Both the position numbers and the translations under genes were made by a program. 64,000 nt of DNA, taken from the NCBI RefSeq assembly GCF_000691505.1, contig NZ_JMIP02000014.1, positions 113,943-177,942 of the forward strand, in the 5' to 3' direction. This DNA is from Halostagnicola sp. A56. GTDB lineage: Archaea > Halobacteriota > Halobacteria > Halobacteriales > Natrialbaceae. Below, one piece after another: positions 44,523 to 46,175 of the stretch. The notes beneath the pieces are model-generated. The model did no database searches, was not told where the DNA came from, and worked only from the letters and a program-made list of their open reading frames with translations. Each line of letters starts with the position of its first letter. Position 1 is the first letter of the stretch.

Positions 44523-45404
44523 TCACGCTCTCAATGTGAGGGAAGCGAGCGTGGCGAACAGCGCTTCTTCCGTTCGCACGACGTCGCTTCCCTGGTTCGG
44601 AACCGTATTGAGCCAGAGGTCGAACCCCGGATCGCCGTTGGGTTCGACGTCTGCGTCGTCCGCGGCATCGAGTCGCGCGACACCATCCGTTCGCACGGTG
44701 TCGGCGTCGATGCCGAGGATTGCCGGCAGCCCTCTCTCGGGCGCGCCGAACGCGACGGTGAGACCGTCCCGCTCGATTCGTCCGGCCAGCGTCTCGAGTT
44801 TCCCCACGGTGAGCGCTTCACCGAACCGGGAAGCTGCGATTCGAACGCCGGCATCCTCACGGCTGAGAGCCGCCGAAAGGTCCGTTTGCTCGATCGACAA
44901 CCCCTGTGTGGGCTTGCCGACGATTTTCGCACGGACCGGTCGTCGCGAAGAGATCCTGACTGTCACGCGCTCTCCCTGCTCGAGTGCCATCTCCGACGGC
45001 ACGTTCAGAGAGATCGGGTGTTGCAGTCCGCAATTGACCCGGACGCGTTGATCAGGTCCGACCTCGGTCACGATTCCGTATCTTTTCGACCCCGAATCGT
45101 CGGATTCGGAGCCGGTCTGTGACGGTGCGCGGAGCGGCGGTAAGACGCCCACGTACTCCAGTTCGTCCCGTTTGCCCCAGATCTCCTTTCGGAGATGCGG
45201 AGGCGTCGTGGCGTACCGCAGTACGGTGCGTACGAACCCGCCGTCTAATTTCCCCGTTTCGCCCTCCCGGTCCGGGAAGACGATCAGGCGATCCGCCCGA
45301 AAGATCGTCGCCGCGCGAGCGACGTATCCGAGTTTGCGAGTCGCCTCGCGTTTGTCCTCGGCTTCTCGAGCGATCGACGACGGCACGAGTACGCGTGTGG
45401 TCAT
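44523..45404 (-). CDS. SPOUT-type RNA methyltransferase heading the ribosomal run
   Basis: A 293-residue protein of the archaeal SPOUT family (COG2106-like), with the methyltransferase fold interrupted by an OB-like insert. Segments: TRVLVPSSIAREAEDKREAT, RKLGYVARAATIFRADRLIV, RYATTPPHLRKEIWGKRDEL (the SPOUT core), an insert around YGIVTEVGPDQRVRVNCGLQ, and the knot-forming end LWLNTVPNQGSDVVRTEEAL. It is usually the first gene before rpl3 in haloarchaea, which fits here with a 4-base gap. The substrate is probably rRNA, but the modified base is not known to me. Confidence 0.82.
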   Translation of the reverse strand: MTTRVLVPSSIAREAEDKREATRKLGYVARAATIFRADRLIVFPDREGETGKLDGGFVRTVLRYATTPPHLRKEIWGKRDELEYVGVLPPLRAPSQTGSESDDSGSKRYGIVTEVGPDQRVRVNCGLQHPISLNVPSEMALEQGERVTVRISSRRPVRAKIVGKPTQGLSIEQTDLSAALSREDAGVRIAASRFGEALTVGKLETLAGRIERDGLTVAFGAPERGLPAILGIDADTVRTDGVARLDAADDADVEPNGDPGFDLWLNTVPNQGSDVVRTEEALFATLASLTLRA

Positions 45405-45708: not shown

Positions 45709-45779
45709 GCGTTGGTAGTGTAGTGGTATCACGTGACCTTGCCATGGTCACAACCTGGGTTCAAATCCCAGCCAACGCA
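45709..45779 (+). tRNA. tRNA-Gly(GCC)
   Basis: A 71-base cloverleaf without intron. Acceptor GCGTTGG pairs with CCAACGC, discriminator A at 45779; the anticodon arm is TGACC-TTGCCAT-GGTCA with anticodon GCC at 45741-45743; the T-arm is CTGGG-TTCAAAT-CCCAG. CCA is not encoded. Its last 21 bases are repeated twice just downstream (see the repeat entry). Confidence 0.96.
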
Positions 45780-46074
45780 TATTTCTCCGAACAATCGCGT
45801 GAGGAGAAATATCTATCTGGGTTTGAATCAGACGAGTCGCAGCACCGAGCGAAGCGAGGTGATCGTCTCGGCGTGGTTCAAATCCCAGCCAACGCACTTC
45901 TGTCGCGAACAAACTCGTGAGCGACGGTAGTCACTGGATTTGAATTATACTGAGGTTCTGCGAGCTTGCGAGCAGGTTCTCAGGAGTAGTTCAAATCCCA
46001 GCCAACGCATATTTCTCCGAACAATCGCGTGAGGAGAAATATCTATCTGGGTTTGAATCAGACGAGTCGCAGCA
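45759..46074. repeat. Array of three 68-base palindromic tRNA-tail units
   Basis: Three units (45760-45827, 45877-45944, 45990-46057) each start with the T-loop and acceptor 3' end of tRNA-Gly and end with an inverted T-loop copy (GGGTTTGAA or GGATTTGAA). All are exactly 68 bases long. Inside, a second stem closes a loop containing GAACAA and CGTGA: ATATTTCTCC/GGAGAAATAT in units 1 and 3, and TGTCGC/GCGACG in unit 2. Positions 45759-45844 and 45989-46074 form an exact 86-base direct repeat (offset 230). Between the units are further hairpins (about 45830-45869 and 45950-45983). No open frame or CRISPR-like spacing is present. Confidence 0.85.
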
Positions 46075-46175
46075 TCTTGCTGCTGTTCGCTGATTGGTCA
46101 CGTGCACTCCAGTGGCTCGAGAGTCGGTATCGTGATTTTGCAGGAACTCCGTAGCCCATACAAAAGTTCTATCGA

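Follow-up and report, generated by a model that had tools for sequence, protein, structure and literature searches.

Downstream of the tRNA-Gly (GCC) gene in the window analysed here, a 64,000-nt stretch of the Halostagnicola sp. A56 genome, the 3′ end of the tRNA recurs within a series of palindromic units, and the question raised by this locus is what kind of element such units represent. The tail sequence GTTCAAATCCCAGCCAACGCA (21 nt) is present three times, at 45759 (within tRNA-Gly), 45876 and 45989, and each copy is followed by a hairpin with a GAACAA...CGTGA loop (hairpin A) and then by an inverted T-loop copy (11-mers at 45818, 45935 and 46048). The three palindromic tRNA-tail units noticed in the original prediction are real, being recovered as repeats and by folding, and they form part of the following array:

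45709..45779, plus strand: tRNA-Gly (GCC), anchor of the array, identified by ARAGORN and Rfam (RF00005, 66.5 bits); the first tail is formed by its final 21 nt
45759..45779, plus strand: tail 0, from G53 at the border of T-stem and T-loop to the discriminator, a direct repeat inside tRNA-Gly
45780..45817, plus strand: hairpin A, type 1 (TATTTCTCC GA AC.. GT GA GGAGAAATA); fold z −5.1 for tail-A-inverted copy
45818..45828, minus strand: inverted T-arm copy 1, for which pairing is possible with tail 0 and with tail 1
45829..45875, plus strand: hairpin B, type 1 (GACGAG TCGCAGC ... GAGCGAAGCGAG ... CGTCTC); fold z −3.9, of the covarying type found class-wide
45876..45896, plus strand: tail 1, 21/21 identical to tRNA-Gly
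45897..45934, plus strand: hairpin A, type 2 (CTTCTGTCGC GA AC.. GT GA GCGACGG); fold z −4.0 for tail-A-inverted copy
45935..45945, minus strand: inverted T-arm copy 2, from folding and unit cutting
45946..45988, plus strand: hairpin B, type 2 (CTGAGGTTCTGCG ... GCAGGTTCTCAG); fold z −5.5 for inverted copy-B-tail
45989..46009, plus strand: tail 2, 21/21 identical to tRNA-Gly
46010..46047, plus strand: hairpin A, type 1 again, the same as in unit 1, within an exact 86-nt repeat
46048..46058, minus strand: inverted T-arm copy 3, from the direct-repeat search
46059..46074, plus strand: start of a type 1 hairpin B, 16 nt long, with which the array ends; the 86-nt repeat ends here too

The full repeat unit thus comprises a tail, hairpin A, an inverted T-arm and hairpin B, and the Gly array advances in steps of 117 and 113 nt. 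The original prediction had placed the tail, hairpin A and inverted copy correctly but overlooked hairpin B, the 68 nt that it described being only part of the repeat. Its claim of equal unit length holds for the three Gly units, in which the distance from tail start to inverted-copy end is the same in 3/3 (21 + 38 + 11 = 70 nt with the boundaries used here), but is not general, as hairpin A ranges from 17 to 108 nt among the 146 elements whose inverted copy is clear. Units 1 and 3 agree over 86 nt without a difference, and unit 2 has a different inner stem in which pairing is kept (TTCTGTCGC/GCGACGG versus TATTTCTCC/GGAGAAATA). Fold z values for tail-A-inverted copy were −5.1, −4.0 and −5.1 in units 1, 2 and 3, with 0/200 shuffles as stable in each case, and those for inverted copy-B-tail were −3.9 (equalled by 1/200 shuffles) and −5.5 (0/200).

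The third unit stops within its own B hairpin at 46074. The flank beyond this position corresponds to another contig of the sister genome G001 (L027), not to the flank of the G001 tRNA-Gly array, and the array end at 46059–46140 would coincide either with a synteny break or with an assembly join; array breaks may be assembly effects, because the source genome (G000) is 83.7% complete and divided into 26 contigs. A displaced, circularly permuted copy of the Gly array without a tRNA is present elsewhere in the source genome (L002; G000:C7:26620-26781). Both of its ends fall in hairpin A of unit 2 (ends TCAC...GTGA), its neighbours are an HTTM-like ORF and a UvrD/RecB-like helicase gene (named by eye), and it resembles an inserted circle or the end of a rearrangement. 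Across the window, matches to Rfam 15 at the gathering score were limited to tRNA and one ribosomal leader, with no further family matched by the array itself. The leader, an L4-Archaeoglobi match on the minus strand (44956–45055), lies upstream of the L3 gene and falls inside ORF 44523–45404, itself an RNA methyltransferase match.

The occurrence of such arrays was assessed at increasing taxonomic distance. Searched by BLAST against its own genome, the array gave 32 matches at a loose E limit of 10, 12 of them below 0.001, and similar array matches were obtained in four genomes of the same genus. A tRNA gene was present in 34/36 scanned loci, the two without one being the displaced copy L002 and the flank L027. 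Sequence was read downstream of 31 of these tRNA genes, and the layout recurred behind those for Gly, Leu, Pro, Met, Ser, Ile, Val, Ala, Glu, Phe and Arg, where tail and inverted copy suit each tRNA, some of them being decayed. The strict pattern GATTTGAA-N(23-53)-GTTCAAATC was found in 174/194 Halobacteria genomes, covering 62/65 genera, and its backward-read control in 0/194. With a relaxed inverted-B-direct pattern, which allows both T-loop variants, 52/53 Halobacteria genomes were positive versus 9/241 genomes from other classes of the phylum (per-class counts by eye); each of these nine held one or two matches, near the control level of four genomes. Near-palindromic places were scored on both strands, and per-genome numbers of matches differ from unit counts.

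Association with tRNA genes was consistent across searches. An ARAGORN tRNA gene is held by 26/30 strict-pattern loci, that of L076 lying several hundred bases off. A scan of named genomes, in which 80 of at least 118 stretches were named, included 28 haloarchaeal loci among those listed; the match lies no more than 600 nt behind a same-strand tRNA gene in 27 of the 28, and the other (L319) is a contig end, while the bacterial matches among those listed appeared chance-like by eye (L350 is a tandem tRNA pair). Tail copies, defined as 18 nt with at most 4 mismatches within 500 nt of the tRNA gene, lay downstream of 12/35, 19/40 and 6/18 tRNA genes in genomes G000, G003 and G039, respectively, upstream of 0/93, and numbered 0 in shuffled sequence. 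Inverted copies (12 nt, at most 2 mismatches) numbered 14, 16 and 3 downstream in the same genomes, 0 upstream, and 1, 0 and 1 after shuffling. The A-loop motif was present within 75 nt of 32/39 unit-bearing tRNA genes versus 4/54 unit-free ones; genome-wide it is less specific, with 62 matches versus 18 for the reversed pattern in five same-genus genomes. The Gly array belongs to a Halobacteria-wide family of tRNA-anchored palindromic arrays, which in the loci examined lie downstream of tRNA genes, the displaced copy L002 excepted. The loci surveyed back the earlier suggestion of a palindromic element linked to tRNA tails: other haloarchaea carry the units too, and not merely as non-palindromic att remnants.

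To describe the family, 162 units were cut out behind 124/206 distinct tRNA genes, a proportion that is not a frequency, the loci having been picked for the element (GC > 0.5, viral loci excluded), and 140 distinct units were kept. Hairpin B measures 21–96 nt. The inverted copy pairs with the T-loop and the 3′ T-stem strand only; the T-loop purine is paired with it in 134/140 units (A-T in 117, G-C in 17), and the following T-stem positions covary among C-G, T-A, G-C and A-T. Both the tail and the inverted copy agree in sequence with the local tRNA, and C occupies the fourth core position in 137/140 next tails. Type 1 B hairpins, with a [TA]CGC...CGT core between co-varying stems, account for 57/140 units. 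Watson-Crick pairs occur in 45/57 of them at stem pair 3 and in 47/57 at pair 4, against maxima of 31 and 32 in 500 shuffles that leave kinship in place, and the stems are fully complementary in 42/57, in 11 distinct sequences; because the distinct stems are many, descent alone is an unlikely cause of this covariation. Unpaired bases are also conserved in these hairpins. The covarying stems support the view, already part of the original prediction, that selection acts at the level of structure.

Two simple origins for the unit were set aside. Perfect snap-back, in which tail and A would have been copied backwards, is at odds with an inverted copy that stops at the T-stem and leaves the acceptor strand uncovered, and random flipping of A or B with the single orientation kept by every type (by eye). 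Further repeats were observed within the hairpins. A second palindromic repeat, consisting of a variable palindrome and GCGAACGGCGAAGCCGTGAGC, lies within A or B hairpins in L324, L096, L527, L528 and L533; the GCGAACGGCGAAGCCGTGAGC repeat also occurs at about position 1500 in L529 and L531, from sister genomes, within an apparent long coding stretch, apparently in frame (by eye) in the manner of palindromic elements within genes. In L331, L302, L053, L351 and L076, which represent different tRNAs and genera, the A loops repeatedly contain a further nested hairpin similar to GACGAGCACCGCGTAGCGTGTGCTCGTC.

The arrays change by whole units. Of 27 multi-unit chains, some of which may share descent, 14 had later tails worse than the earlier ones and 12 had equal ones, with a single chain in which they were better (by eye); the greater decay of the later tails makes the tRNA-proximal end the probable birthplace of units. 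Sister-species arrays differ by whole units: at tRNA-Leu(UAA), three units are present in G000 and a single one in G001, and the two arrays share an identical first A and a homologous downstream flank. B differs between species while A0 is kept at Gly-TCC, in most Gly-GCC pairs and at Leu-TAA in G000/G001. A strict rule of fixed A and free B at orthologous loci holds in part only, A0 being more alike in 20 and B0 in 15 of the 35 comparable pairs; mean identity at orthologous loci was 0.67 for A0 and 0.62 for B0, compared with different-tRNA baselines of 0.52 and 0.56. These counts and identities, like those that follow, come from small, element-enriched sets.

Sharing between different tRNAs is mostly a property of B. 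Among pairs from different tRNAs and different genomes, identity of at least 75% was reached by 35/662 for B and 3/662 for A. Even so, B does not vary independently of the tRNA: both hairpins are more alike at the same tRNA than under label shuffles, 0/1000 of which reach either value, and the nearest neighbour from another group had the same tRNA for 37/129 A and 18/129 B hairpins (expected 5.9). A B hairpin of 86 nt, itself containing a nested hairpin, matches at 82/86 positions between tRNA-Ser in G001 and tRNA-Lys in G002, and the sequences flanking it are unrelated, aligning at 29/58 and 20/38 positions only. One B type of about 30 nt, searched by a pattern with most bases fixed, was found in 28 places in 18/194 genomes from five families, beside at least eight different tails, with the T-loop variants of inverted copy and tail in agreement in 27/28. 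On the strength of the cross-tRNA B matches and the agreement of the arms, B is a component common to different loci and the arms belong to each locus, GAA...GTTC marking the boundary between them; B might also spread by gene conversion among hairpins of one type.

Our tentative reading, to which we give something short of an even chance, is that each unit is a short stretch of non-coding DNA behaving as a cassette, with exchange at the T-loop GTTC, which would work in the manner of an integron or att site. In single-stranded form, the tRNA-sense strand would bring tail and inverted copy together as a double-stranded, T-arm-like site bearing A or B as a terminal hairpin, and a recombinase supplied in trans would cut within the universal GTTC (G53–C56). 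A gain at the tRNA would then add one unit and move the old tail downstream, and an exchange between two GTTC sites would swap the B cassette and leave tRNA-specific sequence untouched. The A cassette would tend to stay with its own tRNA because it carries the acceptor strand, and the arms would be local because the tail must keep the tRNA intact and the inverted copy must pair with the tail. Such a scheme accounts for the greater freedom of B compared with A, as well as for the whole-unit changes and polarity of the arrays. The more specific proposition of a tRNA-anchored, integron-like system with gene-less single-strand cassettes, A largely tied to its tRNA and B traded, is more doubtful, and is put forward as one candidate.

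Among the alternatives, an RNA function is unlikely, yet it fits several of the observations. The array would be co-transcribed with the tRNA as a structured 3′ trailer, for example as a switch, the inverted T-arm either opening up the tRNA fold or being captured by the next tail. Consistent with this, the array lies downstream of the tRNA and on its strand in the loci read, the stems covary, and RNA folds are more stable on the sense strand for 104/140 A and 91/140 B hairpins. The junction between arm and B also has an RNA-compatible excess of G-T (22, versus 2 A-C), with 51 G-T at arm position 0, and G-U is slightly commoner on the sense strand across the whole inverted-B-tail (166 versus 147). 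Within A and B themselves, on the contrary, G-U pairs are rarer on the sense than on the antisense strand (98 versus 157 in A, 70 versus 124 in B); since selection on a sense-strand RNA fold should make them commoner, selection for RNA is disfavoured, and so is the earlier proposal of RNAs that mimic the T-arm. An antisense T-arm should, moreover, harm tRNA folding, and Rfam yields no match at the array besides the tRNA. The B loops also argue against RNA, being mostly of three bases (90/152) and often GNA, with C(GNA)G triloops in 58/152; tandem GA/GA mismatches are present on the sense strand in 90/140 A and 75/140 B hairpins. C(GNA)G triloops and tandem GA are elements of very stable DNA mini-hairpins. 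With DNA energy parameters, the sense strand of hairpin A is the more stable in 65 cases and the less stable in 67, which amounts to no preference, and B prefers the sense strand (94 versus 38). Counts of 1x1 mismatches (A-C 12 and G-T 9 in A; A-C 35 and G-T 3 in B) were rejected as a sign of DNA, the B values being inflated by mismatches conserved within B types. Overall, the features of A and B lean towards single-stranded DNA over RNA, with odds below two to one and not decisively.

A second alternative, with poor prospects in our judgement, would dispense with both a dedicated enzyme and a function, the arrays being a mutational by-product. Template switching, together with ectopic gene conversion, would act on the palindromes that follow highly transcribed tRNA genes, both making the copies and homogenising them. 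Locus-matched direct and inverted copies would arise automatically in this way, whole-unit tandem changes are normal for repeats, and nested hairpins are present in both A and B. The same processes would not explain why the related classes searched are near control level, why unpaired bases are conserved, why a largely fixed 30-nt B sequence (pattern-defined) is found in five families, why A and B keep one orientation (by eye) or why the inverted copy ends where the T-stem ends.

Integration was examined through linked integrases and through mobile elements. No integrase is encoded among the seven proteins adjoining the Gly array (L3, RNA methyltransferase, RibD-like, metabolic enzymes and one without a match). 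Matches to PF00589 numbered 12 in G000 and 6 in G003; the nearest to the Gly array on the same contig is about 89 kb away, and the nearest placeable one to a unit-bearing tRNA gene about 17 kb away (tRNA-Glu, G003). The displaced copy L002 has one match at a distance of about 13 kb, and a weak one, below the cut-off, is located about 0.4 kb from the unit-free tRNA-Ala(GGC) of G000. At the Gly array there is accordingly no trace of the tyrosine-recombinase elements whose compact attachment sites the units had been suggested to be. Searches of phages and viral contigs (loci with GC of at least 0.5) returned no haloarchaeal-type copy among the matches listed. A viral scan for B type 1 gave at least 120 stretches, about the number estimated by chance, none with T-loop arms among those listed; for B type 2 it gave four, 0 with T-loop arms. 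Plasmids yielded one weak partial match in Natronorubrum bangense (77% over 56% of the query, E 0.07). The phage BLAST matches listed, to N4-like Pseudomonas and Gordonia phages, were weak (E 0.8) and judged convergent or due to chance. The N4-like matches fall at 45835–45862 of the window, with 58 Pseudomonas phage records; N4-like phages use DNA hairpin promoters, and the likeness is probably a convergence.

The least probable alternative, that of tandem att remnants left when T-loop proviruses or plasmids were lost by deletion, with A-inverted-B as a shrunken attP/attR, draws on a copied block from G53 to the tRNA end that is the classical 3′-end att block, on tails that are less decayed nearest the tRNA, on the preference of archaeal integrases for tRNA 3′ ends as described in the accessible part of one study (PMC8371274) and on the partial tRNAs adjoining full copies in Haloferax gibbonsii, as given in the available text of its report (PMC7921747), but it leaves unexplained why hairpins A and B of the same kinds follow many sorts of tRNA across nearly all the genomes examined and why the inverted copy is matched to its locus, and neither a nearby integrase nor, among the matches listed, a haloarchaeal-type copy in phages or viral contigs speaks for it.

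One close parallel among known systems is the integron. An imperfect palindrome predicted to fold from one strand is an attC-like trait present here, and attC sites carry GTTRRRY/RYYYAAC boxes, in place of which the core of the present units is GTTCRAAT. The anchor is a tRNA gene, no IntI-like gene is linked among the seven adjoining proteins, and A and B (17–108 and 21–96 nt) are too short for genes. The attC/cassette arrays, those of archaeal integrons included (PMC9668308), share with the present ones tandem cassettes, sites that can fold from one strand into a hairpin with a variable end, growth beside a fixed anchor and cassette exchange; in the main text of the paper on archaeal integrons, the words Halobacteria and Halobacteriota are absent. 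The att sites of integrated archaeal elements at tRNA 3′ ends share the direct tRNA copy from T-loop to 3′ end, whereas the copies here are about 115 bp apart with no element genes between them, and full units carry an inverted copy and two structured hairpins. In attP of the CTX phage type, a single strand folds so that direct and inverted cores pair into a double-stranded recombination site. The pairing of direct and inverted cores is alike; no virus was found in our searches, and the arrays are chromosomal and at many tRNA genes. REP/BIME and other bacterial palindromic repeats are short non-coding hairpins in many copies, unlike which the present arrays lie behind tRNA genes and have arms of local tRNA sequence. 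Casposons also use tRNA 3′ ends, and CRISPR arrays alternate repeats and spacers and grow at one end. A repeat-spacer look and one-end growth are common to the latter and the present arrays, in which, however, the "spacers" are shared structured hairpins of uneven length and an inverted repeat lies inside.

Partial tRNAs have been remarked on before in haloarchaea. In Haloferax gibbonsii, as reported in the available text, they can directly adjoin full copies and were regarded as tRNA remnants (PMC7921747). They are probably tail copies of the same kind; that text makes no mention of hairpins, inverted copies, arrays or class-wide spread. The accessible parts of two further reports put partial tRNAs down to prophages or similar elements in Haloquadratum (PMC3119063) and tie one partial tRNA to a prophage in Natronomonas (PMC3623002). 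Our literature search, to which subscription journals were mostly external, so that an older description is possible, returned such remarks and no description of the arrays. A structured repeat behind a large share of the tRNA genes of nearly all examined haloarchaea thus appears undescribed in the literature searched. Even if its origin were mutational, it would reveal a strong palindrome-forming process linked to tRNA genes. If the cassette reading is true, haloarchaea would possess a site-specific recombination system without cargo genes, which could bear on the role of tRNA genes as integration hot spots, could offer a tractable model, in Haloferax and Haloarcula, for folded single-strand recombination in archaea, and could provide natural recombination sites for haloarchaeal genetics.
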